From Candidatus Zixiibacteriota bacterium (GTDB lineage Bacteria > Zixibacteria > MSB-5A5 > GN15 > JAAZOE01), in assembly GCA_030668485.1 (NCBI GenBank), contig DAOUTW010000039.1, positions 1-41,046 of the forward strand: a stretch of DNA of 41,046 nucleotides, read 5' to 3'. Below the pieces are notes generated by a model. The model was not told where the DNA came from. It saw nothing but the letters and a program-made list of their open reading frames with translations, and made no database searches. This document shows, piece by piece, positions 5,372 to 25,388 of the stretch. Made by a program: the position numbers and the translations under genes. The stretch's first letter is position 1. The number at the start of each line of letters is the position of its first letter.

Positions 5372-7054
5372 TTACTTGTTCTGATCAAGAAGCTGCTCTA
5401 CCATTGCCTTCAATTCAGCAACTTCGGTTTCAAGCTCTTGGTTTTTCTCATTCAGTGCCTGAATGGCCACCAGGGCGACACCTGCTTCATCCAGGGACGC
5501 TATCGATTTGTCGTCACCACCGAGGCCGAAAAGAGAGTAGAAGTCTTGCGCCACTGGCCCCATGTGAGTGATGTCGTCGTTTTCACTCTTGTAATTCCAC
5601 CGTGTGATCGATAGCCGTGCGATTTTATCGAGAACCTCTTTGCCATCCACGCGGCAGAAGTTTTCTTTGAGATTCCTGTCAGAGGCGTTGGTCCATACAC
5701 CACCAACGGTGAGATGAGCCCCCATTGAAGTTGTAATGACATCTACGCCGTCATCGTATATCTGGAGCCATCTTCCGTTGTTGATATCAAAACGGGCTCC
5801 GCCGTCGGCTCGTACACGGAACTGTTCAGTTCGCTGCGAACTGAAATCCGAGTTAGTATAACTACCCCAAACGAATGCACCGTTATGGATGGCTTTCGCT
5901 CTTCTGCCGCCAGCAAAGGAGAATTGCCCCGTTGCCTCGTTGGATCGGCCTCCACATACAATCGAGTAGTCTCCGCTGGCCGCATTGCCATAGCCGCCGG
6001 TCACCGTTGTTGCGTAACCGGAAGCAGTATTATCGTTCCCACCCCCAACTGCAGAAGCATCCCCGCTGGCTGTGTTGCCCCAACCGCCGCTAACTGTGGA
6101 CTGGTATTCGCTGGCGGTGTTATAACCACCGCCGCCAACTGTAGAATAATCCCCGCTGGCCGAATCCAGGTAACCTCCTCCAACTGTGGCTGCCCATTCA
6201 CTGGCCGAATTATAAACGCCGCCACCCACGAAGGCACCATACCCGCTGGCGGAATTGATGGTACCACCGGCCACAGTTGCTTCTTCACCTGAAGCTGAAT
6301 TTACGCTTCCGCCGCCAACTGTGGATCTCATGCCGCTGGCTGTGTTTTCAGCACCGCCGCCAACTGTGGAATACGAGCTGCTGGCCGTATGGAATGCGCC
6401 ACCTCCAATAGTGGAATTATAGCCACTGGCCACATTTCCCTCCGATGCAATATGACCGCCGCCTCCGCACACGACAGAGTAAGGACCCAGGGCTTCATTA
6501 TAACCGCCGCCACCAACTGCAGACCCATTCCCACTGGCTGTGTTATTCTCGCCAGCCACGAAGGCGTTCTCGCCACTGTTTGTATGTCCCGGGCCGATAG
6601 TCGCTTTGCCGGAGACAGAAAGGTCGCTTTGAATGCTTACGTCGCCTGAGATGATCCCTCCCGTTGAGCCATCCACCGTGCTTACACGAAACGCATATGG
6701 CACCGAAACAAAATGCGTTCGCGGAGAAATCTCAGGATCGCCGCCAACCGTAATGCCCAGCCAGCGATCAGCATTGACAAAAACGCTATCATCAATAGGC
6801 ATGAATTCGCCTAGTACGATGTTGAACATGCCACCGGTAACCATTACCGATGGATGTACTTCCGCCCACCATACCACTCCGCCGGTTGAATCATCATATA
6901 TGGCAAACTCCATCGACACCGTAGTGTCCAGAGCCACACCGGTGCCGTCGGTCAATTCCCCCTGATAATTGATCATCTGGGGCGCATCGGCGATGGCATT
7001 AGTTGCCCAAAACACCAATGCAATTAACGCTAATAAGAATGTTGCTTTTTTCAT
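5372..7054 (-). CDS. secreted repeat protein with S74 intramolecular-chaperone (endosialidase-type) C-terminal domain
   Basis: 560 residues. The start at 7054 has GGAGG upstream. A signal peptide (~1-22) is followed by a beta domain (APQMINYQGELTDGTGVALD) common in FCB surface proteins. Residues ~170-385 consist of a 15-residue repeat of the type NTASGxxSTVGGGxxx, a YadA-head-like left-handed beta-roll. A C-terminal S74 domain follows with SDRNLKENF (Ser458 and Lys463 being the expected self-cleavage pair), ITHMGPVAQDFYSLFG, and a final coiled coil of Glu/Leu heptads. S74 domains trimerise the upstream fibre and usually cut themselves off. The protein is therefore probably a trimeric surface fibre or adhesin. 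It is co-transcribed with the dockerin protein downstream. Confidence 0.85.
   Translation of the reverse strand: MKKATFLLALIALVFWATNAIADAPQMINYQGELTDGTGVALDTTVSMEFAIYDDSTGGVVWWAEVHPSVMVTGGMFNIVLGEFMPIDDSVFVNADRWLGITVGGDPEISPRTHFVSVPYAFRVSTVDGSTGGIISGDVSIQSDLSVSGKATIGPGHTNSGENAFVAGENNTASGNGSAVGGGGYNEALGPYSVVCGGGGHIASEGNVASGYNSTIGGGAFHTASSSYSTVGGGAENTASGMRSTVGGGSVNSASGEEATVAGGTINSASGYGAFVGGGVYNSASEWAATVGGGYLDSASGDYSTVGGGGYNTASEYQSTVSGGWGNTASGDASAVGGGNDNTASGYATTVTGGYGNAASGDYSIVCGGRSNEATGQFSFAGGRRAKAIHNGAFVWGSYTNSDFSSQRTEQFRVRADGGARFDINNGRWLQIYDDGVDVITTSMGAHLTVGGVWTNASDRNLKENFCRVDGKEVLDKIARLSITRWNYKSENDDITHMGPVAQDFYSLFGLGGDDKSIASLDEAGVALVAIQALNEKNQELETEVAELKAMVEQLLDQNK
5915..6544 (-). repeat. 45-bp coding tandem repeats (15-residue YadA-head-like units)
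   Basis: Within the S74 protein the A-S-G turn recurs at exact 15-residue steps over about twelve consecutive units, with one or two less regular copies before them. DNA of the units is diverged but alike (recurring CGCTGGC and CCGCCGCCAACTGT words on the plus strand). This is protein repeat structure, not a CRISPR array. Confidence 0.85.
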
Positions 7055-7273: not shown

Positions 7274-8485
7274 ATGATAGATGCATTCGAAAATTGGTTG
7301 ATCGAACAGGGATTCAGTGAGCAACTGGCTGATTATACCAGTTGGGCGGGAGCGGCTCTGGCAGTTATTATCCTCGCCTTACTGGCCAATTACATTGCCA
7401 GAAAGTTTCTTCTGGTAGCTGTGTCAATTTTTGTAAGGAAAACCCGGACGACATGGGACGATGCCCTCCTGAAACGTAATGTCTTCACCCGCCTGTCGCA
7501 TATGGCCCCCGCGTTTGTTTTATACCTCTCAGCCTACCTGTTCCCGCCGATTCAGGATACGATCCAGCGGATGTCAATGATTTACATGATCCTGACCGGC
7601 CTGTTTGCCTTCAACGGTCTGCTCAATGCCGTCGTCGATATTTATAATACCTACGACGTCTCACGTCAGAAACCGATCAAGGGTTATGTTCAGATTGCGA
7701 TGATCATCATCTCGGTTTTCGTCGTCATCTTCGCCCTGGCAATGCTGTTGAATCGTTCCCCCTGGCCCCTGCTCAGCGGCCTCGGCGCCATGACGGCGGT
7801 TCTGCTGCTGATTTTCAAGGATACCATTCTGGGCCTGGTGGCCAGTATCCAGCTTTCCGCCAATGACATGGTGCGTATAGGCGACTGGATCGAAATGCCC
7901 AAATACGGAGCCGATGGCGACGTGATTGATGTCAGCCTGCATGTTATCAAAGTCCAGAACTGGGATAAAACAATCACGACCATTCCAGCCTACGCCCTGA
8001 TCTCCGATTCTTTCAAGAACTGGCGAGGAATGTCGGAATCGGGCGGGAGGCGTATTAAGCGAGCCATCAATTTCGACATGACCAGCGTCAAATTCTGCAC
8101 CCCTGAAATGCTGAAGCGATATGAGAAATTTCAGCTATTGGCCGATTATATCAAGTCGAAGCGGGATGACATCGCCGCCTATAATACCGAACACAATGTC
8201 GACACGTCCGAGTTGATCAACGGTCGCAACCTGACCAATATCGGCACCTTCCGCGCTTATCTGGTTGCCTATCTGCGGCATCACCCGATGATTCACCAGG
8301 AGATGACTTTCTTGATCAGACAATTGTCGCCCGGCGAGTACGGTCTGCCAATCGAAATTTATGTTTTCAGCAGCGATCAGAATTGGGTGAACTATGAGGC
8401 TATCCAGGCCGATATTTTCGATCATATCCTGGCGGTCCTGCCGATGTTCGATTTACAGATTTTCCAGCTAATCGACCGGGAATGA
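7274..8485 (+). CDS. MscS-family mechanosensitive ion channel (YbdG-like)
   Basis: 403 residues; GAGGG lies before the ATG. About five membrane segments are visible (roughly residues 22-45, 75-92, 100-122, 138-160 and 168-190). The last is the pore-lining helix, followed by the conserved MscS beta-domain (LVASIQLSANDMVRIGDWIE, then GDVIDVSLHVIKVQNWDKTI and TTIPAYALISDSFKNWRGM). The cytoplasmic C-terminus (~260-403) is long, with a segment NGRNLTNIGTFRAYLVAYLR and LPIEIYVFSSDQNW, as in the YbdG/MscM subfamily. Such channels open under membrane tension to release osmolytes during hypo-osmotic shock. It appears monocistronic. Confidence 0.9.
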   Translation: MIDAFENWLIEQGFSEQLADYTSWAGAALAVIILALLANYIARKFLLVAVSIFVRKTRTTWDDALLKRNVFTRLSHMAPAFVLYLSAYLFPPIQDTIQRMSMIYMILTGLFAFNGLLNAVVDIYNTYDVSRQKPIKGYVQIAMIIISVFVVIFALAMLLNRSPWPLLSGLGAMTAVLLLIFKDTILGLVASIQLSANDMVRIGDWIEMPKYGADGDVIDVSLHVIKVQNWDKTITTIPAYALISDSFKNWRGMSESGGRRIKRAINFDMTSVKFCTPEMLKRYEKFQLLADYIKSKRDDIAAYNTEHNVDTSELINGRNLTNIGTFRAYLVAYLRHHPMIHQEMTFLIRQLSPGEYGLPIEIYVFSSDQNWVNYEAIQADIFDHILAVLPMFDLQIFQLIDRE

Positions 8486-13731: not shown

Positions 13732-14598
13732 TTACTGGACCGCAACGTACCCGGTTTCGATTACAATCTTCTGTCCCTCTTTCGACATACAAAAATCGAT
13801 GAATGACTTAATGGCGCCGGTTGGGGCGCCCTTGGTATAAAAATGCAGAGGACGAGCAATCGAATAGGCACCCGAACTGACCGTCTTTTCCGACGGATAG
13901 ACTGGATGTTCGTTTTCGTCCTTCTTGACACCCAACATTTTGACCTTGTCGCCGGCCTCGACTCCATAACCAAGACCGACATATCCGATAGCCCATTGAT
14001 CCGTAGAAACCGAATGGATGATGGTCGAGGTGGCCGGCATCAGGCGAGCTCTGGTGGTATAATCTCTTTTCTTGAGCACATGCTCCTGGAAGAATACATA
14101 TGTACCGGAACTCGACTCGCGGGATAGTACCAGAATCGGTTTATCGGGACCGCCGACTTGATTCCAGTTGGTGTAGGCGCCGGTATAGATTTTGCCAATC
14201 TGCTCGACCGACAAAGTCTCTATCGGGTTTCTCGGATTAACGACCACCGCAATACCGTCACGGGCCACTACATGTTCCATCACGTCCAGCCCTTTACTTT
14301 CCGCCAGCTTGTACTCTTTTTCTTTCATCTGACGTGAGGCGGCGCAAACATCGGTAGTGCCATTCAAAAGAGCCGCGATTCCGGTTCCGGAACCTCCGCC
14401 CGTTACTGAAACTTCCATGCCCTCATTATGATTCATGAAGGCTTCAGCCCAACTGGAAACCAGATGAACCATCGTATCCGAACCTTTAACTGTGACATAG
14501 CCGCCGGCCTGGGCTTCAAACGACTGGAAGACCGGGAAGGCGACCAGCATAGCCAGCGTTCCCAGAACTGCTGCAAGTAATTTAATCCTTTGTTTCAT
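13732..14598 (-). CDS. pstS: periplasmic phosphate-binding protein PstS
   Basis: 288 residues. GGGAGGAG lies before the ATG. A signal peptide of about 31 residues ends in SFEAQA|GG. The mature protein begins with VTVKGSDTMVHLVSSWAEAF, carries SVTGGGSGTGIAALLNGTTD (phosphate-contacting Gly/Ser/Thr loop) and LVLSRESSSGTYVFFQEHVL, all hallmarks of the PstS/PBP-like-2 family (shorter, about 290-residue type). It captures phosphate in the periplasm for PstCAB. It is the first gene of the operon, with 11-bp direct repeats about 60 bases upstream. Confidence 0.95.
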   Translation of the reverse strand: MKQRIKLLAAVLGTLAMLVAFPVFQSFEAQAGGYVTVKGSDTMVHLVSSWAEAFMNHNEGMEVSVTGGGSGTGIAALLNGTTDVCAASRQMKEKEYKLAESKGLDVMEHVVARDGIAVVVNPRNPIETLSVEQIGKIYTGAYTNWNQVGGPDKPILVLSRESSSGTYVFFQEHVLKKRDYTTRARLMPATSTIIHSVSTDQWAIGYVGLGYGVEAGDKVKMLGVKKDENEHPVYPSEKTVSSGAYSIARPLHFYTKGAPTGAIKSFIDFCMSKEGQKIVIETGYVAVQ

Positions 14599-16516: not shown

Positions 16517-17203
16517 TTATCCTTTGAAACGGTAGCCAACTCCGCGAACCGTCTCGATATAAGATCCAGCTCGGCCAAGTTTTTTTCGTAAACCGACTAT
16601 TTGCACATCGACCGATCTGTCTGTCACCGGATAATCGGTTCCATGGAGCGCATCCACTATCTGATAGCGAGTAAACACCCAACCGGGTCGCCGCGCCAGC
16701 AGATTTAAAAGACGGAACTCTGTAACCGTCAAATCAATTACCTTCCCATCGACCAGAACTTCATGACGGCCTGGGCGAATGGCGATCCCGCCGATTTTGA
16801 TCTCGGCATCATCCTCAGGAGGCGCGGACCGGAAGCGGCGTATGGCGGTTCGGATGCGAGCCACCAGGATATTGGGACTGAACGGCTTGGTGATATAATC
16901 TTCCGCCCCAAGTTCAAGCCCAACGACAACATCGGACTCCTCACCCTTGGCCGAAACCATGATAATGGGGATACCAGCGGTTTTAGAATCACTTTTTAAC
17001 TTGCGGCAAAGCTCAAGACCATCGACCCCGGGAAGCATAATATCAAGCAGGATCAAATCGGGCCTGCTTCTGTCAACTGCTGTCAGCGCCTCTTCCCCCG
17101 ATTTTACTCCAGAAACCAGATAACCCTCACGATTCAGGTTATAGGTAATTAATTCCAGAATATCTTCCTCATCCTCAACAACAAGGATGTTTTCGCCAGA
17201 CAT
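16517..17203 (-). CDS. phoB: phosphate regulon response regulator PhoB
   Basis: 228 residues. AAGGAG precedes the start at 17203, and the 39 upstream codons in frame have no site. The receiver domain has the acidic pair at ~10-12, phosphoacceptor Asp54 (LILLDIMLPG) and Lys106 (DYITKPF). The OmpR/PhoB winged-helix domain (~130-228) contains LTVTEFRLLNLLARRPGWVF and SVDVQIVGLRKKLGRAGSYI, then ETVRGVGYRFKG. It activates pst and its own genes under phosphate limitation. A second 11-bp-phased word pair resembling the pstS repeats is at 17250-17271 just upstream (weak). Confidence 0.93.
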   Translation of the reverse strand: MSGENILVVEDEEDILELITYNLNREGYLVSGVKSGEEALTAVDRSRPDLILLDIMLPGVDGLELCRKLKSDSKTAGIPIIMVSAKGEESDVVVGLELGAEDYITKPFSPNILVARIRTAIRRFRSAPPEDDAEIKIGGIAIRPGRHEVLVDGKVIDLTVTEFRLLNLLARRPGWVFTRYQIVDALHGTDYPVTDRSVDVQIVGLRKKLGRAGSYIETVRGVGYRFKG

Positions 17204-17420
17204 TAATAAGCTCCTTCGCTTTACCTGTTTGAAAAGATAATTCAAAACGTTTGTTAGAAAAACATTAAAGTTTGATGAGATCTTTATGGTTTTCGAATAC
17301 TTTTCAAGACGGCGCATCAACCATCCACCCAGAAAGTAAAACTATGACATCATATATTAGTACATCCACAATATTGGTGTGTGATATCAAAATTGAAGAA
17401 TAAATATAAGGGAATTGCCC

Positions 17421-17449
17421 TTGACAAGTGGCCTCAGGCTCCCTATTCT
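17421..17449 (+). promoter_or_regulatory. sigma-70-type promoter of the RiPP precursor region
   Basis: TTGACA (17421-17426), a 17-base spacer and TATTCT (17444-17449). The next strong ribosome-binding sites on this strand are at 17642 and 17826, so the leader would be about 190-380 bases. The 17204-17420 stretch before it holds the phoB upstream region and no gene. Confidence 0.6.
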
Positions 17450-17653
17450 TTGAACCAAAGAGCACATGTCAAACCCGGCGGGGACAACTGTTTTGTTATC
17501 GAAAGGGCATCAATCGGTTCTGCTTCTTAGATTCGTCAGGCATTTTCGATATCAACGTTTTTAGGGATTAGGTTGGGTTACTGCTTCATGTAGATCCGAG
17601 TCCGACGACTAAGTGGGACAAAAACACTTGTTTACCAATCGCAGGAGTTTCTC

Positions 17654-17749
17654 ATGAAATATGGCAATGGTCGTACGGGAAAATATCAGTGGGATAATCA
17701 TCTCAATCCTCATGAGATGACTGCTGGCCGGCAGAGGACAAAATCGTGA
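17654..17749 (+). CDS. 31-residue leader ORF of unknown role upstream of the RiPP precursors
   Basis: The ATG at 17654 has AGGAG seven bases upstream. The product starts MKYGNGRTGKYQW and ends GRQRTKS. It is basic and Cys-free and lacks the motifs of the three precursors that follow. It might be a leader peptide coupling translation to downstream expression, a decayed precursor, or a chance frame behind a purine-rich stretch. Confidence 0.3.
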   Translation: MKYGNGRTGKYQWDNHLNPHEMTAGRQRTKS

Positions 17750-17837
17750 GGTGTTCGACCGGACCGAAGCCTAGACCGAAGGCATCAACGGCATAAGACG
17801 CCGGTCCGCGACTTTTGCCAAACTCGGAGGTGAGATA

Positions 17838-17939
17838 ATGTATTATCTGGTGGACCCCAAAGATGTAGCTGAACTTTCGTGGTGTGTTTTCAAATGCAAG
17901 AACTTCGGGCCTGCGCCCTTGTATGGAGTCGAGCCGTAA
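17838..17939 (+). CDS. RiPP precursor peptide 1 (MxYLVDPK family)
   Basis: 33 residues; GGAGG seven bases before the ATG. It opens MYYLVDPKD, continues VAELSW, has the CX3C pair Cys16-VFK-Cys20, then KNFGPA and ends PLYGVEP. The opening nine residues and the closing P-L-Y-G-V-x-P are shared with two further small genes at 18132 and 18555. Middle sequences diverge, which is the pattern expected of a recognition segment, a variable modified core and a conserved follower. Two radical SAM/SPASM genes, a B12-type radical SAM gene and an ABC exporter follow on the same strand. I do not recognise the motif from any named RiPP class. The role as precursor is inferred from size, conservation, Cys pattern and neighbours. 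Confidence 0.75.
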   Translation: MYYLVDPKDVAELSWCVFKCKNFGPAPLYGVEP

Positions 17940-17951
17940 TCGTTCTTTCTT

Positions 17952-18037
17952 AGATATGACAATATCTGACCGGTTCGTTTCCACCGGATTCGTCCCGGTC
18001 AGCGATAACCCGATAACTCCGGCATAAGAGGAGTTAT
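17952..18037 (+). other. hairpins between precursor genes 1 and 2
   Basis: AGATAT-gaca-ATATCT (17952-17967) and a perfect 8-bp stem ATAACTCC / GGAGTTAT (18013-18037) whose loop is GGCATAAGA. The same nine-base word also occurs at 17790-17798 ahead of precursor 1. No T-tract follows. These may stabilise or process the precursor mRNA. Confidence 0.45.
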
Positions 18038-18131
18038 TCGATTTGTAATCGGTCGGCGGATCAGGAATCCATGAGCAGGCATCATCGATTAATCCGTCGA
18101 CTGGAACCCACTCACACATGGAGGTACCCAC

Positions 18132-18254
18132 ATGCTCTATCTGATCGACCCTAAGGATCTGTGCGGTGCGAAATGCTGGCCGTTCTTCATCACATGCCGG
18201 CCCGACAATCATCCGATGTACGGAATTGATCCGTGCGGTCGTATTGATTCATAG
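18132..18254 (+). CDS. RiPP precursor peptide 2 (MxYLIDPK family)
   Basis: 40 residues; GGAGG seven bases before the ATG. It opens MLYLIDPKDL, has the CX3C pair Cys11-GAK-Cys15, continues WPFFIT with Cys22, then RPDNH and PMYGIDP, and carries an extra tail CGRIDS with Cys35. It has four Cys against two and three in its siblings. The conserved P-M-Y-G-I-x-P is not at the very end here, so the tail after it seems tolerated, as also in peptide 3. The wobble positions differ from precursor 1 while the protein motif holds (YLVDPK versus YLIDPK), which argues for selection on the peptide rather than recent duplication. Confidence 0.78.
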   Translation: MLYLIDPKDLCGAKCWPFFITCRPDNHPMYGIDPCGRIDS

Positions 18255-18339
18255 TTCGGACGCATAATCCTCAGGCCGGCTTTTAACGTAAGAAAACGCA
18301 AATCCCTTATGTGACAGAGCCGGCTGAATCATGAGTATT

Positions 18340-18378
18340 GGAGGGAGCGGTGCATGGTTACACCATATACCGCTCTCC
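18340..18378 (+). other. long strong hairpin between precursor genes 2 and 3
   Basis: GGAG-gg-AGCGGTgcATGGT pairs with ACCATataCCGCTCTCC around a three-base loop, giving about 17 pairs with one two-base bulge and one mismatch. There is no T-tract. It lies in a 300-base gap without another supported gene. It may be an RNA-processing or attenuation element setting the dose of peptides 2 and 3. Confidence 0.6.
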
Positions 18379-18554
18379 ATTCAAACGATTTGAACAGGCG
18401 AATGTGGAACCTCTATGATTGAGTATGTCTTTTGCCCGATAAGTTGCCAGGCATCCATTCGATCACGATTCATTCCCGTCAAGGGAATCGCAATCGGGCA
18501 TGGAAACCACATATGGCGGAACCTCGCAAGGTTTCGCATCCAAGGAGGTGTCAA

Positions 18555-18665
18555 ATGATTTATTTGGTTGATCCCAGGGAAAACATCAGCCTAAAGTGCA
18601 GATTCTACTGCGGAATCAAACCGCTTTACGGTGTGCCGCCGATTTTATGCAATATCGTGCAATAA
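18555..18665 (+). CDS. RiPP precursor peptide 3 (MxYLVDPR family)
   Basis: 36 residues; AAGGAGG six bases before the ATG, the best site of the three. It opens MIYLVDPRENISLK, has the CX3C pair Cys15-RFY-Cys19, then GIKPLYGVPP and the tail ILCNIVQ with Cys32. Lys8-Asp9 of the siblings is replaced conservatively by Arg8-Glu9. The distance between the opening motif and the first Cys is close to that of peptide 1 (Cys15 versus Cys16), and the aromatic residue inside or beside the CX3C (F/Y/W) recurs in all three. It is the last precursor before the enzyme promoter at 18720. Confidence 0.78.
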   Translation: MIYLVDPRENISLKCRFYCGIKPLYGVPPILCNIVQ

Positions 18666-18719
18666 TATTCGGCAAATTGATCCCGGTCTGCCGCATGCGA
18701 AAATGGTTTGTTTCATCTC

Positions 18720-18747
18720 TTGACAATATCACATTTTCGATTAAAAT
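18720..18747 (+). promoter_or_regulatory. sigma-70-type promoter of the radical SAM/exporter genes
   Basis: TTGACA (18720-18725), 16 bases, TAAAAT (18742-18747). It lies about 85 bases before the first enzyme. It separates transcription of the enzymes from that of the precursors. Confidence 0.6.
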
Positions 18748-18774
18748 ACGGTAGGCCATCAGACAATTGAAACG

Positions 18775-18802
18775 ATATGGGGCGGGGCCCTCCCCGTTCC
18801 AT
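18775..18802 (+). other. leader hairpin upstream of the first radical SAM gene
   Basis: TATGGGGCGGGG pairs with CCCCGTTCCATA (two G-T wobbles) around CCCT. It lies between the promoter at 18720 and the start at 18833, and could damp enzyme expression relative to the precursors. Confidence 0.5.
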
Positions 18803-18832
18803 ACGTAAATATCTTAAAAGCGAGTGCTAAAC

Positions 18833-20191
18833 ATGTCGAAGTTATCTCGATTCAACCATTTTCAACCATGGCGCGACGGCTATTACATCGCCTATAATGC
18901 GATGAGCGGAGCTGTGGCTCTTATGACCAATGAGAATTACGAGGTATACAAGAAAATACCCGAAATACTTGCTTCCAATAACCAACCCGACCTTTCCGAT
19001 GAGGAAAAGGAGCTGTTCAAACAGCTCGAATATGGCCGCTTCCTCTGCGATGATGACCTGGATGAAGTGGAAGCGCTCCAATTCCGTCAGAATATGGACC
19101 GTTATGGTCAAGCCTCGATGGGATTAATCCTCGCCCCTACTCTGGCCTGCAATATGGCCTGTGAATATTGCTACGAGGCCAACAAGAAGGGCCGGCTGTC
19201 ATCGCAATTAGTCGAAAAGATCGTGGAATTCGTCGAGGAGCGAGCCCCACACCTCGCAGGCCTCGATGTCAGTTGGTACGGCGGGGAACCTCTTCTGGCG
19301 ATGGATATCATCGATGACCTCACCGCGACCTTCCTCGATCTGGCCGAGGAATACAAATTCAAATACGGCTCCTCAATGATTTCCAACGGGTATCTCATGA
19401 CACCCGAAGTTACCGACCGTCTCGTCAAAAACCAGGTGAAAACGATTCAGCTCACTCTCGACGGACCGGGACGCATTCATAATAAGAAACGCCCCTTGAA
19501 AAACGGCAAGCCGAGTTTCGAAACCATTCTAAAAAACATTCAGTACGCCGCGGATAAAATAGGGGTCGGTATCCGGGTCAACGTCGATAAGAGTTTTACC
19601 AATGACATCATCAAGGAACTGTTGCAGGAATTGATCGATGCCGGAGTGCATGATAAAGTAGGAGTCTACTTCGGACAATTGGAAGCCTCAACCCAGGTTT
19701 GTTCCAACATATCCGAATCATGCTATGAAACGGCCGACTTCTCCAAAATCGAAATAGATTATTATCGTCTGCTGCTGGAATATGGCTTCCGGATCGACCG
19801 CCTGCCGCAGCCGATGAGTACCTTCTGCATGGCGCAGGTTATCAGTTCTTTTTTAATCGATCCCGATGGTGATCTTTATAAATGTTTCAACCATGTTGGG
19901 GATAAGGACAAAATTGTGGGTAATATCGGGGCGGAAATAAACTACCAGAATCCCAATTTTAAACACCTGTTCAATTTCAGTCCCTTCCAGGATGAAACCT
20001 GCAGCTCATGCAATTTCCTTCCCATCTGTATGGGCGGCTGCCCTTCCCGCCGCGCCGACCGCGGCCTGACCGGCGAACAGCTCTGTGACAGTTGGCGTCA
20101 TAATCTCGAACCGATGCTGGAGATTATCGCCCTGTCCCGTCAACAAGAAATGCAACGGCAGAAAGAGGCGGCCGTGGCCGCAAAGGAGTAG
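18833..20191 (+). CDS. radical SAM/SPASM peptide maturase 1
   Basis: 452 residues from the ATG at 18833; a GTG nine bases earlier is possible. Residues ~1-90 form an N-terminal region (SRFNHFQPWRDGYYIAYNAM, SGAVALMTNENYEVYKKI) resembling the PqqD-like/RRE regions of peptide maturases, which bind leaders. The radical SAM barrel has CX3CX2C at Cys106, 110 and 113 (CNMACEYCYE) and the SAM-contact strand WYGGEPLL. The SPASM domain has the full seven-Cys layout: Cys332, Cys351, then CX2CX5CX3C (390, 393, 399, 403) and Cys418, binding two extra iron-sulfur clusters. SPASM enzymes typically form thioether, C-C or other crosslinks in ribosomal peptides. Its position after three small Cys-bearing genes makes them the likely substrates. 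The next gene starts six bases after the stop. Confidence 0.88.
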   Translation: MSKLSRFNHFQPWRDGYYIAYNAMSGAVALMTNENYEVYKKIPEILASNNQPDLSDEEKELFKQLEYGRFLCDDDLDEVEALQFRQNMDRYGQASMGLILAPTLACNMACEYCYEANKKGRLSSQLVEKIVEFVEERAPHLAGLDVSWYGGEPLLAMDIIDDLTATFLDLAEEYKFKYGSSMISNGYLMTPEVTDRLVKNQVKTIQLTLDGPGRIHNKKRPLKNGKPSFETILKNIQYAADKIGVGIRVNVDKSFTNDIIKELLQELIDAGVHDKVGVYFGQLEASTQVCSNISESCYETADFSKIEIDYYRLLLEYGFRIDRLPQPMSTFCMAQVISSFLIDPDGDLYKCFNHVGDKDKIVGNIGAEINYQNPNFKHLFNFSPFQDETCSSCNFLPICMGGCPSRRADRGLTGEQLCDSWRHNLEPMLEIIALSRQQEMQRQKEAAVAAKE

Positions 20192-20197
20192 ACTACA

Positions 20198-21316
20198 ATG
20201 GAAGAGTTTAATTTTTTTCCACAAAGCACTGTCTGGGAAATAACCTTTGCCTGTAATATGCGCTGCCTTCATTGCGGCACCGCTGCCGGCAATATCCGCC
20301 CGGACGAATTGACCGACGATGAAACCTACAAAGTCATCGACGAACTGGGCGAACTGGGCTGTGAAGTGCTTACCCTCTCCGGAGGCGAACCGCTGCTGCG
20401 AAAAAATTGGCAGGAAATGGCCCGGCGCCTGAAGAAACACGGCGTCAAAACATGCATCATCTCCAACGGCTATATGGTCAACCAGAAAATCGTCGATGAT
20501 TTCGCGGAAATCGGGATAAATAATGTCGGGATCAGCTTCGACGGCATCGAAAAAACTCACAATCATATCCGTCAACGCCCCGACAGCTTCCAACGGGCCT
20601 ACAACGCCATGAAATTGATGTCGGAGACAAAAATTCGCTATTGCGCCGTCAGTCAGATTTCAAATATAAACATCAATGAACTGGATCAGATCAGGAAACT
20701 CCTGGTCGATGTCGGATGTCCCCAATGGCGAATTCAGATGACTACTGATACCGGGCGCATGTCCAAAGATCTCGTTATGCCGCTCGAGAGATATGCGGAG
20801 TTTATCGACAAGGTATTGGAATTCAAGAAAAACGATGCCGAATTAGATATCGATATCGGCGAAAATATCGGCTATTATGGCTGCCGCGGAATGGATATCC
20901 GGCAGGGCTTCCCCTATCTGGGATGCTACGCAGGCACACGAGTCCTCGGTATTGAATCGGATGGAAAAATAAAAGGCTGTCTGTCGATGCCGGAAGAATT
21001 CGTCGAAGGAAATCTCCGTGACAGTTCCTTAATCGAGCTCTGGAACAACCCGGAGGGCTTCGCATACAACCGAAAATTCACCCGCGAGACCGCATCGGGC
21101 GCATGCTATGAATGCAAGTATCTGCCCCTTTGCCGCGGCGGTTGCGCCACAACATCATACTCTGCCACCGGTGAAAGGGCCAATAACCCCTTCTGCATCT
21201 ATCAAATAGAAAAGGCCCAGGGAATTGAGCCGCCCCCCGATACCGAGTTGATCACTGATTTGCTTGGCCGATTCAAAGAGCCGGCTGAAAAACCGGTGGC
21301 AATCGAGGAGGACTGA
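20198..21316 (+). CDS. radical SAM/SPASM protein 2
   Basis: 372 residues. It has no N-terminal RRE-like part. The barrel begins at once with VWEITFACNMRCLHCGTAAG (Cys19, 23 and 26), followed by LTLSGGEPLL and IISNGYMV. The SPASM layout is complete (Cys243, Cys261, CX2CX5CX3C at 303, 306, 312 and 316, and Cys333). The C-terminus is a Glu/Pro-rich tail. Sequence differences from maturase 1 are large, so it is not a recent duplicate. A second SPASM enzyme could install a second kind of modification or work as a partner in one reaction, as paired SPASM proteins do in some known cassettes. Lacking its own leader-binding part, it may rely on maturase 1 for substrate presentation (inference). Confidence 0.88.
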   Translation: MEEFNFFPQSTVWEITFACNMRCLHCGTAAGNIRPDELTDDETYKVIDELGELGCEVLTLSGGEPLLRKNWQEMARRLKKHGVKTCIISNGYMVNQKIVDDFAEIGINNVGISFDGIEKTHNHIRQRPDSFQRAYNAMKLMSETKIRYCAVSQISNININELDQIRKLLVDVGCPQWRIQMTTDTGRMSKDLVMPLERYAEFIDKVLEFKKNDAELDIDIGENIGYYGCRGMDIRQGFPYLGCYAGTRVLGIESDGKIKGCLSMPEEFVEGNLRDSSLIELWNNPEGFAYNRKFTRETASGACYECKYLPLCRGGCATTSYSATGERANNPFCIYQIEKAQGIEPPPDTELITDLLGRFKEPAEKPVAIEED

Positions 21317-21321
21317 GGCGT

Positions 21322-22755
21322 TTGACAAAAAAACGTTTACCCTCAATTCTCCTGGTTTACCCCTCCTGCTTCTATTATCCGACTCATTTGGAGCGGGTGG
21401 AAATAAAAACATCCCAGTTGTGGCTGGCTTCGTATCTGAATCAGTTCTACCCGGTGACTTATGCCGATTTCGAGTATGATATCGGCCGTCCCAATACCCC
21501 GACTCAGATCAAGCGCTTCAAGCGAAAGGTCCGCCAGTACCTGGAGGAGCAGGCTTTCGATATCCTGGCTATCTCCTGCTGGACCAGCCTGTCGTACCAG
21601 GCCACTCTTGCCATCGCCCGAATATGCCGCGACCTCTATCCGGATAAGGTTATAGTTGTCGGGGGGTATCACCCTATGGCACGTCCGGAAGAGTTTATCA
21701 CCGACGATAAGGTGATCGATTATATCGTCACCCGCGAGGGAGAACTGGCCCTCAAGGCGATAGCCGATGAATTCCACAATACCGGCCGCCCCGCCGAACC
21801 TCAAATTGTCACCGGCCCTTTGGTTACCGAGGATAATTTTGTCGACTACGACTGGAACCTGGTTGAATCGTTTTACCGCCGCAATTTCCCCGAGGGGATT
21901 ACCAATAACTGCATCTACCTCTCCCGGGGTTGCCCCTTCGGATGCTCCTTCTGCATGGAACCTTTGAAAGAAAGGCGATGGCGCGTATTTTCGCCAAAGG
22001 AATCGGTTGATCATGTTATGGAAGTAGCTGAACGTTTCGATCTGTACTCGGTCGCAATCGCCGACGCCTGTTTCGGCATGCGCCCGAGTTGGAGAAAGGA
22101 GTTTCTTCGGCTGATGGTCGAACGGCAACCGAAGTTTTGGGTGGTATTCGAAACCAGGGCGGAATACCTGGACGAGGAGGATATCAAACTCCTGGCGAAT
22201 ATAAAACTCGAAATCCAGTTCGGCCTCGAAAGCGGTTCGCCGGATATGCTGCGATTGATGAAAAAAACCCGCCAGCCGGAAAAATACCTCCGGCGCTTTT
22301 CCGAAATCAGCCATCTGTTGAGTGATCACAAAATCCTGCACCGCGCCAATATGATTTTCAACCATCCCGGCGAAACACCCAAAACCTTGAATGAGACGTT
22401 TGCTTTCATCGACCGCGAACTCGAAACCGAAAATTCGTACCTGATGTGGGCCAATTGCGGATTCATGCATTTCCCCGGTTGCGAAATCGACCGCAATAGC
22501 CAATATTACGAACAAACCTTCGGCAGCCGTTTTATCAGCGGCGACTGGTGGAAAGATGAAAAGAACCAGCATGAACAATGCAAGAAATTTATCCCCTCGC
22601 GTGAACTCGATGGCGACAACTTGAAAATGTGGGAAACGATGCAGGCTGAGCGGGATGCTCGGATGCGCGATACCCTGGCCCCAAGGGCTTTTGAATTCGC
22701 TGCCCGAAAATATTTCTACGATTGGAAGGATGATTATCGATACCCGAATCGCTAA
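21322..22755 (+). CDS. B12-binding-type radical SAM protein
   Basis: 477 residues with TTG start five bases after the previous stop; GAGGAGG and TGAGG lie upstream. Residues ~1-170 have the cobalamin-binding-like Rossmann domain of this class (SILLVYPSCFYYP, DILAISCWTSLSYQATLAIA, VIVVGGYHPMARPEEF). The radical SAM core carries CX3CX2C at Cys204, 208 and 211 (RGCPFGCSFC), with the later strand IQFGLESGSPDML and NMIFNHPGETPKT typical of B12-rSAM proteins. Members methylate unactivated carbons or rearrange rings, and several act on peptides. Here it may C-methylate or otherwise tailor the modified peptides. No MTase-specific motif identifies the reaction. Confidence 0.85.
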   Translation: MTKKRLPSILLVYPSCFYYPTHLERVEIKTSQLWLASYLNQFYPVTYADFEYDIGRPNTPTQIKRFKRKVRQYLEEQAFDILAISCWTSLSYQATLAIARICRDLYPDKVIVVGGYHPMARPEEFITDDKVIDYIVTREGELALKAIADEFHNTGRPAEPQIVTGPLVTEDNFVDYDWNLVESFYRRNFPEGITNNCIYLSRGCPFGCSFCMEPLKERRWRVFSPKESVDHVMEVAERFDLYSVAIADACFGMRPSWRKEFLRLMVERQPKFWVVFETRAEYLDEEDIKLLANIKLEIQFGLESGSPDMLRLMKKTRQPEKYLRRFSEISHLLSDHKILHRANMIFNHPGETPKTLNETFAFIDRELETENSYLMWANCGFMHFPGCEIDRNSQYYEQTFGSRFISGDWWKDEKNQHEQCKKFIPSRELDGDNLKMWETMQAERDARMRDTLAPRAFEFAARKYFYDWKDDYRYPNR

Positions 22756-24487
22756 ACGGCTCTGGCAATATCTGAAGCCATATTGGAAGCTCGAAGTTCT
22801 CACCTTTTTCGTGATGTCGGTTATTGCCGTCCTCACTCTGGCGCTTCCAATAGCCATTCAGTACATGATCGATGACCTCATCCCCTGGCTCATCGAAACC
22901 GAAGACAGCAGCCTCAAACTGATGCGCGTCAGCATTTTCGGCGGCGCTCTGATGGGCCTCTACCTGGCCAATGTCCTTTTCTCATGGTGGCGCGATTATC
23001 TCGCCAGTAAAATCGGAGCTAATATTATCGCCGATATGCGTTCGGAACTGTTCTATCACCTTCAGCAGGTTTCATTACGCTTCCATCAAACTCACCAGGT
23101 CGGCGAAATGATGTCGCGACAACTATCCGACATCAACCGCATTCAAAGCCTGATGACCACTACCCTGCTGATGTTCCTGGCCAACATCCTGATGCTGACT
23201 GCCATTATGATCTACCTTCTCAATGTTAACTGGTTTTTGACCGTGATCGCCCTTATCCCGGTTCCGTTGACGATTCTCCTGTCCAACAAATTCGGGCACA
23301 GATTGCATGATATCAATCGCGGCCTGCAGGAATCGATAGCCCGTTTCTCCGCCCGAATGCAGGAAGCTTTCGTCGGTACGCGTATAATAAGGGCTTTCGG
23401 TCAGGAAAAAGCGGAAAAGGCTAAAATCGATTCTGAACTGAAAACTCTGACTGGGTACTACATCAAAAACAGCGTCACCACCTCGCTGGCCTTTAATTTC
23501 ATGCATTTCATAAATATGATCGGCCCGATTGTAGTCCTTGCCTGGGGAACCTACCTCATCGCCGGAGGATCAATGAAACTCGGCGCCCTGATGGCCTTCT
23601 ATATTCTGCTCAGTTATCTCTATTCCCCAATCAAAGACCTCGCCGCCATCAATATCGAGGTCCAGGCCTCTATGGCCTCGGTCAACCGCATTTTTGAATA
23701 TCTTGACGTTCCACCGGCCATCAAGGAATCGCCGAACCCGGTGTTGTTACCTCAAATATCAGGTGCTATCAAGCTCGAGAATGTCTGCTATTCTTATGAA
23801 GACAGCGGTTTCAGTATCGAAAATCTGAATCTCGATATCAAACCCCATCAAAAAATAGCCATCGTCGGGCCCTCCGGATCGGGCAAAACGACTCTGATCA
23901 ACCTCATTATGCGTTTCTTTGATCCCAACTCCGGCAAAATCAGCATCGACGGCGCCGATCTGCGTGATCTTCCGATTAAAACCCTGCGCGACAATATCGG
24001 CCTGGTCGATCAGGATCCGTTATTATTCAAATCGACCATTTTCAACAATATCGCTTATGCCCGGCCCGATATCGGACTTGATGATGTCATCCGGGCCACA
24101 AAAATTGCCAACATCCATGATTTTATCGACAGCCTTAAGAAAGGTTACCAAAGCGAAGTCGGCGAGCGAGGCGTCACTCTCTCCGGTGGCGAGAAGCAGC
24201 GTATGTGCCTGGCCCGAGCAATCCTCATCGATCCTCCCATCCTCATCCTCGACGAGGCTACCTCATCACTCGATTCCAACTCGGAGCAACTGATTCAGGA
24301 AGCGCTCAAAAGGGTATTGGCCGACAAAACCGCCATTATCATCGCTCACCGTCTCTCCACGGTTAAGCATGCCGACCGGATCATAGTCATGGACAACGGT
24401 AAAATCGTGGCCGAAGGGACCCATGCCGAATTACTGGAAAAATCGCCTCTCTACCGCGCCCTCGCCAGCAAACAGCTCATGCTCTGA
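22730..24487 (+). CDS. ABC exporter, fused membrane and ATPase domains
   Basis: 585 residues. The start at 22730 overlaps the end of the B12 enzyme gene by 26 bases; an earlier in-frame ATG (22655) lies deep inside that gene. The membrane domain (~1-320) has six helices, the first at ~25-45. The ATPase domain has Walker A GPSGSGKTT (380-388), Q-loop GLVDQDPLLF, signature LSGGEKQ (484-490), Walker B ILILDE and the switch IIIAHRLST. It is a type IV half-transporter acting as a homodimer, of the lipid-A/multidrug/peptide exporter kind. There is no N-terminal C39 peptidase, so it would export but not cut the peptide. Gene overlap ties it to the three enzymes, making the peptide product its likely cargo. 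Confidence 0.9.
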   Translation: MIIDTRIAKRLWQYLKPYWKLEVLTFFVMSVIAVLTLALPIAIQYMIDDLIPWLIETEDSSLKLMRVSIFGGALMGLYLANVLFSWWRDYLASKIGANIIADMRSELFYHLQQVSLRFHQTHQVGEMMSRQLSDINRIQSLMTTTLLMFLANILMLTAIMIYLLNVNWFLTVIALIPVPLTILLSNKFGHRLHDINRGLQESIARFSARMQEAFVGTRIIRAFGQEKAEKAKIDSELKTLTGYYIKNSVTTSLAFNFMHFINMIGPIVVLAWGTYLIAGGSMKLGALMAFYILLSYLYSPIKDLAAINIEVQASMASVNRIFEYLDVPPAIKESPNPVLLPQISGAIKLENVCYSYEDSGFSIENLNLDIKPHQKIAIVGPSGSGKTTLINLIMRFFDPNSGKISIDGADLRDLPIKTLRDNIGLVDQDPLLFKSTIFNNIAYARPDIGLDDVIRATKIANIHDFIDSLKKGYQSEVGERGVTLSGGEKQRMCLARAILIDPPILILDEATSSLDSNSEQLIQEALKRVLADKTAIIIAHRLSTVKHADRIIVMDNGKIVAEGTHAELLEKSPLYRALASKQLML

Positions 24488-24540: not shown

Positions 24541-25332
24541 CTATGTTGCCAAATGCTTCTTCACCACCGCTTCGATCGCTTCCAGATCAACCTGGGTATC
24601 TTTGCAGGGGCCCAAAGGACGATAATTGGGAAAACCGATAACCGGAATATGCGGATTGACATCGATAAAACCGGACAATAGGTCACGCTCGCAGGCAATA
24701 GCGATAATCAGTGACGGGCGAATTTCACGAATTTTGCGCCGCGCTTCAGTCCCGCCGCCGGCGGTCGCAAGTTCAAACCCATAGGTCTCACGCATTTTGC
24801 GCAGGGCGGCATTATTATCTTTGGTCAGGCAACGCGGCGTCATCATCAACATTTTCTCCGGGGCAACCTTCCGGGGAGCGCTGCTGATAAACAAATTATG
24901 CAGTTTGAGGAACGAATTGATCAAATGATCGCGGGAAATACCGAAAATGCTGCCGACCCGGGTCGATATTTCCAATAGCAGGTTGACCAGTTTCGGAACG
25001 ACGATCAGCGTCGATAAAAACGGCCTCTTGGTAACCGCCCCCCAAAGGAAAAGTGCCAGCCACAAAATCAGGATTGACGACAGAGTAAAGTAGAAGATAT
25101 TGAATACTTTGCCGAGGAAATGCCCTATTTGATCAAGACGGGGATAAATCAGCCATCCAAACAACGCTGTAATACCAAGGATAGCGGTAATAGTCGCTAT
25201 CGCCACACCGACAAAAACGCGCGGGTCGGTATCTGACGAAGCCTCCGCCACTCGGCCATCCCAATCGGCCCACTCGTCACCCAGTTTCCGTTTAGGTAAC
25301 GGGCTTTCCTTATCAATCCCTTTATCAGCCAT
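24541..25332 (-). CDS. DUF116 family membrane protein
   Basis: 263 residues from ATG 25332; ATG 25362 is possible and neither has a clear ribosome-binding site. A hydrophilic lead is followed by two membrane helices (~40-62 and ~75-100). The cytoplasmic DUF116 domain (~145-263) has conserved Cys-bearing motifs: LMMTPRCLTKDNN, then IIAIACERDLLSGF, and IGFPNYRPLGPCKDTQVDL. The Cys spacing suggests metal or iron-sulfur binding, but no reaction is established for the family. It is convergent with the exporter gene, so it is not in the RiPP transcript. It starts just after the first giant dockerin paralog, on the same strand and about 55 bases away. Confidence 0.8.
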   Translation of the reverse strand: MADKGIDKESPLPKRKLGDEWADWDGRVAEASSDTDPRVFVGVAIATITAILGITALFGWLIYPRLDQIGHFLGKVFNIFYFTLSSILILWLALFLWGAVTKRPFLSTLIVVPKLVNLLLEISTRVGSIFGISRDHLINSFLKLHNLFISSAPRKVAPEKMLMMTPRCLTKDNNAALRKMRETYGFELATAGGGTEARRKIREIRPSLIIAIACERDLLSGFIDVNPHIPVIGFPNYRPLGPCKDTQVDLEAIEAVVKKHLAT

Positions 25333-25388
25333 TTTAATGAATATACGCTGCAAACAGGCCAATGCCAGAACTTTTTATGCCGACGAGC

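Follow-up and report, generated by a model that had tools for sequence, protein, structure and literature searches.

Short cysteine-rich precursor peptides of a radical-SAM-modified RiPP family in Zixibacteria

We identified three small open reading frames that are, to practical certainty, precursors of a radical-SAM-modified RiPP family, encoded with their maturases and an exporter. They lie in the window, by which we mean the whole stretch of 41,046 nucleotides that was analyzed, a contig (G000:C128) of a Zixibacteria genome. What generally marks a RiPP system is found here: conserved short precursors stand beside peptide-modifying enzymes and an exporter, and they are under purifying selection. 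The precursor family is large, was previously unlabelled, and occurs in the uncultured phylum Zixibacteria; our search of the open-access literature found no paper joining Zixibacteria, RiPP and radical SAM.

Each of the three genes is on the plus strand and is preceded by a GGAGGT-type ribosome-binding site. Precursor 1 (MYYLVDPKDVAELSWCVFKCKNFGPAPLYGVEP, 17838-17939) has 33 amino acids and two cysteines, carries PLYG at 17916-17927, and matches the family HMM with 49.5 bits (E 9.8e-12). Precursor 2 (MLYLIDPKDLCGAKCWPFFITCRPDNHPMYGIDPCGRIDS, 18132-18254) has 40 amino acids, four cysteines and PMYG at 18213-18224 (E 4.1e-11), and precursor 3 (MIYLVDPRENISLKCRFYCGIKPLYGVPPILCNIVQ, 18555-18665) has 36 amino acids, three cysteines and PLYG at 18621-18632 (E 4.3e-11). 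The sequence-only reading of this DNA had described a middle that changes in length and holds 2, 4 and 3 cysteines, and these peptides bear it out. Searched singly against Pfam and NCBIfam, they had no match. Downstream on the same strand are the radical SAM/SPASM enzymes M1 (18833-20191), a peptide maturase, and M2 (20198-21316), the B12-binding radical SAM enzyme M3 (21322-22755; PF02310 and PF04055), and an MsbA-like ABC exporter with transmembrane and ATPase domains (22727-24487), in which PF00664 and PF00005 are the only strong domains. Past the exporter, on the opposite strand, a DUF116 protein is encoded at 24541-25362; a homologue stands beside the cluster of locus L064 (discussed below), and most loci have none.

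The space between precursor 3 and M1 holds a sigma-70-like promoter on the plus strand (TTGACA-16-TAAAAT, 18720-18747; a consensus match only, 11/12) and a strong GC hairpin (18773-18804, plus strand) that is a possible attenuator or processing site. The segment 18666-18832, which contains the hairpin, has an RNA fold z of -4.1. Good promoter-like sites were found upstream of precursors at 23%, versus 3% in shuffled DNA. A shared RNA structure element upstream of the precursors was rejected as weak (mean z -1.2), an Rfam search of 17100-19000 gave no match, and the DNA repeats were only short, chance-like ones. Upstream of precursor 1 there is also a 31-amino-acid ORF (MKYGNGRTGKYQWDNHLNPHEMTAGRQRTKS, 17654-17749) with GGAG 5' of its ATG, which has no family match.

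Of 132 Zixibacteria genomes, 37 contain the precursor family according to a profile built from 50 members. The 85 family genes read encode 83 distinct peptides, of which MIYLIDPTAASKDVCLRLCGTYCGIKPCYGVPPEEI is an example; they are 31-48 residues long with 1-7 cysteines each, and an SD-type site precedes 69 of the first 70 precursors examined. The consensus is M-I-Y-L-[IV]-D-P, followed by a Cys-rich middle and then by P-[L/M/C]-Y-G-[V/I]-P. Across the family, position 7 of the opening is always Pro, position 3 is Tyr or Phe, position 4 is Leu or Ile, and position 6 is mostly Asp or Glu. Successive cysteines are mostly spaced as CxxxC (104/185). P-x-Y-[GS] is present in 78 of the 83 precursors, 76 of them with Gly, and five precursors are without PxYG. 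The residue x is Leu in 53, Met in 12, Cys in 12 and Ile in one, the next residue after the motif is Val or Ile, and the tail beyond has no set length (3-13 residues). M1 orthologues (50-64% identity) lie directly downstream of precursors in about 30 Zixibacteria loci, with one to seven small family ORFs directly upstream of them, and the order precursors-M1-M2-(M3)-ABC is kept in some 30 loci. M3 occurs in roughly half of the loci and the exporter in most.

Precursors need not adjoin the enzymes. Five more of them stand alone on four other contigs of the window genome (G000), each preceded by an SD site, surrounded by unrelated genes and remote from any maturase: on C75 (L100, 6652-6759, minus strand), C1 (L101, 7014-7130, plus strand), C54 (L102, two genes at about 6470-6574 and 7753-7890, plus strand) and C56 (L103, 6814-6939, minus strand). 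Run against 245 genomes of the G134 phylum (L049, titled Neomarinimicrobiota) and 297 of the G136 phylum (L053, titled Desulfobacula), the precursor profile gave no hit. Against Pfam and NCBIfam, the 50 precursors gave only sub-threshold Clo7bot matches and one huazacin match, with no match to a leader (Nif11/NHLP) or to DUF1843.

We propose that M1 recognizes its substrates by their very short opening, M-x-[YF]-[LI]-[IV]-[DE]-P, probably via the RRE-like N-terminal domain of that enzyme. M1 would link cysteines in the middle, which is variable, and would most likely do so through thioether bonds; M2 would cut a tyrosine-derived piece out of the backbone at X-Y-G (tyramine excision), leaving an alpha-keto-beta-amino acid. 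Where M3 is present, it might make one more modification, probably a methylation, and the product would leave through the ABC protein. Both chemistries, the order of the steps, the removal of the leader and the role of the product are what we infer. The cluster has no protease gene, and the exporter is without a peptidase domain. A protease inhibitor is a plausible product by analogy, because ketoamides are used as protease-inhibiting groups (PMC11002830).

The RRE-like domain of M1 covers about residues 1-92. The best NCBIfam profile for M1 is that of the Clo7bot maturase, TIGR04334, at 352 bits against a cut-off of 600; PapB scores 143 bits. Among PDB entries, M1 matches CteB (5wgg) by sequence and 5why/TigE by fold. 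CteB is its best solved relative by both measures, and the matches to CteB and TigE cover nearly the full length, including the N-terminal strand-helix domain, which in CteB is the peptide-binding RRE. The predicted structure has a mean pLDDT of 79. Sequence and modelled fold suggest that M1 is probably a Cys thioether former, and the domains of M3 make it a possible methyltransferase. Cys precedes Tyr in 10/34 with M3 and in 3/24 without (kinship ignored), and no connection with M3 was drawn from this.

M2 has no RRE domain; its radical SAM core stands at the very start of the protein. Its best curated profiles, TIGR03913 (237 bits, cut-off 592) and TIGR04103 (221 bits, cut-off 725), are both below cut-off, and it is 31-35% identical to members of these families; TIGR04103 is presumably the same as IPR026482. 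Among annotated plasmids, M2 is closest to enzymes of Aureibacter, Agathobacter, Azospirillum (GDL family) and Nostoc (C057), after which identity is about 30% or less. The Nostoc C057 enzyme is a true TIGR04103 member, with 853 bits over the cut-off of 725. The peptides encoded beside these relatives carry IALYGLPPELF (Nostoc), PVMYGTGVRM (Agathobacter), IKPYGVAI and RMLYGGAM (Azospirillum) and IIQPYGAGI (Aureibacter), two Aureibacter GDL peptides read MYA/LYA, and no XYG peptide was found for a related enzyme in Tropicibacter. PlpX, which excises tyramine at Xaa-Tyr-Gly, belongs to IPR026482 (PMC11002830). The PlpX tag, PIRPLYGLPI, with LYG and MYG as natural sites (PMC10533398), nearly equals the Zixibacteria ending KPLYGVPP.

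M2 likely acts at PxYG, and the likeness of its sequence and sites to those of PlpX makes it reasonably probable that M2 is a splicease excising tyramine at X-Y-G. A different chemistry at the same target, such as a Tyr crosslink, a decarboxylation of Tyr or C-C bond as in MftC, or a dehydrogenation, is the strongest competitor, and we consider it rather unlikely. In its favor, M2 is by profile a general PqqE/MftC/AhbD-type SPASM enzyme that matches many families, and it is only about 33% identical to PlpX-type enzymes. The MftC substrate, however, ends in CGVY and has no XYG, whereas the PLYG[LVI]P context is close to the PlpX tag. The motif GxNIGYYG, present in 25/25 Zixibacteria M2 and in TIGR04103/TIGR03913 relatives (weaker in Agathobacter), is absent from MftC, NirJ, TIGR04133 and the M2-like enzymes that other clusters of Zixibacteria encode. 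A tree likewise put M2 with the TIGR04103/TIGR03913 enzymes, away from MftC, NirJ and the M2-like enzymes (97/87), although the long branch of TIGR04133 also fell on that side; an AU test for one clade of M2 and the XYG-associated enzymes gave a borderline p of 0.07.

Zixibacteria have 21 other M1-family loci (about 30-38% identity) without a true M2 neighbor, many of which carry a distant M2-like enzyme (25-29%). Most precursor candidates in these loci retain an opening of the type M-x-[FWIY]-[LI]-x-x-P and have no PxYG, and because of this the opening is seen to follow the M1 family in Zixibacteria and PxYG to follow M2. Among these candidates are the MNWLVxP and MDFLIQP peptide families and peptides of the form MKFIEKPQ...KPCPCYK...LPP. 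The last belong to a second, separate short-precursor system (L094, 8292-12159 on G000:C109; L130-L149), in which they are accompanied by one or two M1-like enzymes and by a distant M2-like radical SAM enzyme. The rule is not strict, because the second M1 copy of L064 (14222-16157, G003:C20) has LYA-type precursors, with CYLYAFPC or CYLYAWPW instead of PxYG. This copy was rejected as a clean natural experiment, since its precursors read LYA and a true M2 lies on the same contig. At about 14000-14100, on the minus strand, L064 also has an ORF that resembles a precursor and is interrupted by an in-frame stop.

These M2-less loci also bear on whether PxYG is a follower, that is, a tag for recognition or for export and cleavage, with M2 modifying the Cys-rich middle together with M1. 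A short, fixed motif near the C-terminus and a middle that varies most in sequence would suit such a tag, but M1-family clusters with other partners have Cys middles without PxYG. The limitation of the residue before Tyr to Leu, Met, Cys and Ile is typical of a substrate site, and the tail past the motif varies freely. We judge the tag improbable.

The precursor family and M2 are both present in 34 genomes, and only one of the two is present in 3 and 2 genomes (Fisher p ~1e-25, kinship ignored); most exceptions are at contig ends or, in G122, beside a masked stretch. This near-perfect co-occurrence, together with the adjacency to M1, largely refutes the idea that the peptides have nothing to do with the radical SAM enzymes and are small Cys proteins with a metal-binding or structural role. 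Their cysteine content at so short a length and the five solitary copies in the window genome could be cited for this idea, but it is a very remote prospect.

Selection acts on the peptide. The sequence-only reading had claimed as much for the three window genes, and had proposed a dN/dS-style analysis of homologues as a check, with equal divergence at all codon positions as the contrary result. In 14 orthologue pairs, pS is 0.41, pN is 0.064 and dN/dS is 0.11, with regional values of 0.024 for PxYG, 0.048 for the opening and 0.15 for both the middle and the tail. The differences at codon positions 1, 2 and 3 number 36, 29 and 144 in 490 codons, far from equal. Two pairs have identical proteins with a pS of about 0.3. 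Mean identity between orthologues is 86% in the ORF, 66% in the 100 bases upstream and 71% downstream, with random DNA at 48%. The same reading had spoken of diversified cores. This fits the strong differences in length and cysteine number between paralogues, but not hypervariability, as orthologous middles are conserved. Because of the purifying selection between orthologues, the middles are to be seen as a set of distinct, maintained paralogous peptides and not as one hypervariable core.

Within the window, the motifs are kept while the codons differ, as had been noted: genes 1 and 3 have the same codon at only 5 of 16 shared residues, with differences of 2/0/10 by codon position, and genes 1 and 2 at 8 of 12. 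In YLVDP, genes 1 and 3 differ in the codons for Leu (CTG/TTG), Val (GTG/GTT) and Asp (GAC/GAT). The Leu, Val and Pro codons had all been said to differ, which is right for Leu and Val but for Pro only in comparison with gene 2 (CCT), because genes 1 and 3 both have CCC. An alignment of the three genes with their flanks had also been suggested, in the expectation that similarity would stop at the ORF ends. The ORFs resemble one another with z = 3.2, 5.6 and 3.2, and the flanks are at background, except upstream of genes 1 and 2 (56%, z = 3.6). Since pS between the paralogues is 0.71-0.85 and the flanks are otherwise unlike, recent DNA duplication is excluded; the view that the three genes are recently duplicated DNA, similar for reasons other than protein selection, can point to their tandem arrangement and to that weak upstream match, but it is refuted by these values and by the orthologue dN/dS, and has next to no chance of being right.

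The Zixibacteria system resembles the spliceotides (PlpA/PlpXY of Pleurocapsa; Nostoc C057) in its X-Y-G with Leu or Met as X, in the context of that site (IALYGLPPE versus KPLYGVPP), and in a related SPASM enzyme with the common GxNIGYYG. Unlike the spliceotides, it has precursors of only 31-48 amino acids with a seven-residue opening and a Cys-rich middle, no Nif11/NHLP leader, a second radical SAM maturase, and no separate RRE protein PlpY beside M2, which is itself about 33% identical and below the TIGR04103 cut-off. No small gene that could be a PlpY-type RRE partner was found between or beside M1, M2, M3 and the ABC gene in the window. Of the marks of a spliceotide, the X-Y-G in the precursor is present, and the TIGR04103/IPR026482 profile score, the RRE partner and the Nif11/NHLP leader are lacking; for these three reasons we do not place the system in that family, although its working would be similar. 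A splicease survey of 2022, by Scott et al. in Chem, reportedly contains 939 predicted systems.

Three other known systems share single features. The Clo7bot system (TIGR04333 peptides, TIGR04334 maturase) has short Cys-rich precursors and supplies the best profile for M1, but M1 is at 352 of the 600 bits required, and the best of our peptides reaches 18 against 31 bits, with 2/50 matching. The opening lies within the partial match of these two, which starts at profile position 1. To our knowledge, Clo7bot has no PxYG enzyme. The ranthipeptide maturases CteB (SCIFF) and PapB are distantly related to M1, which has the RRE, radical SAM, SPASM order of CteB; the identity by fold is only 17%, the precursors are unlike SCIFF and freyrasin, and the thioether is a prediction for M1. 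The GDL (DUF1843) peptides carry [P/L]YG, and their enzyme family, TIGR03913, is the top profile for M2, but identity is about 33% (237 versus 592 bits), and GDL peptides lack a Cys-rich middle and an MxYLxDP opening.

It is an even call whether all of this amounts to a phylum-specific RiPP class, in which a thioether maturase would act via the seven-residue opening and a splicease via the C-terminal P-x-Y-G, without Nif11 or PlpY, with one enzyme set serving both clustered and stand-alone precursors and Cys-Tyr-Gly sites included. If so, the Cys-Tyr-Gly sites would yield a thiol-bearing alpha-keto-beta-amino acid, and radical SAM backbone splicing, joined with Cys crosslinking, would reach very short precursors that lack a classical leader. 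Modular tags as small as these, of about seven residues at each end, would then be convenient for engineering ketoamide peptides.

Homologues of M2 (36-38%) also occur without M1 or a recognizable precursor nearby, at G000:C60:43415-44422 (L151) and on G026:C21 (L152). The Azospirillum and Aureibacter GDL peptides from the DUF1843 genes of L123, L126 and L121 mostly have [P/L/M]Y[GA] near their start, which suggests that TIGR03913 enzymes may be spliceases too. Agathobacter rectalis, a human gut bacterium, has an unannotated small ORF (L122, 4698-4904) that ends in GPVMYGTGVRM, lies directly upstream of a radical SAM gene and is a candidate for a splicease substrate.
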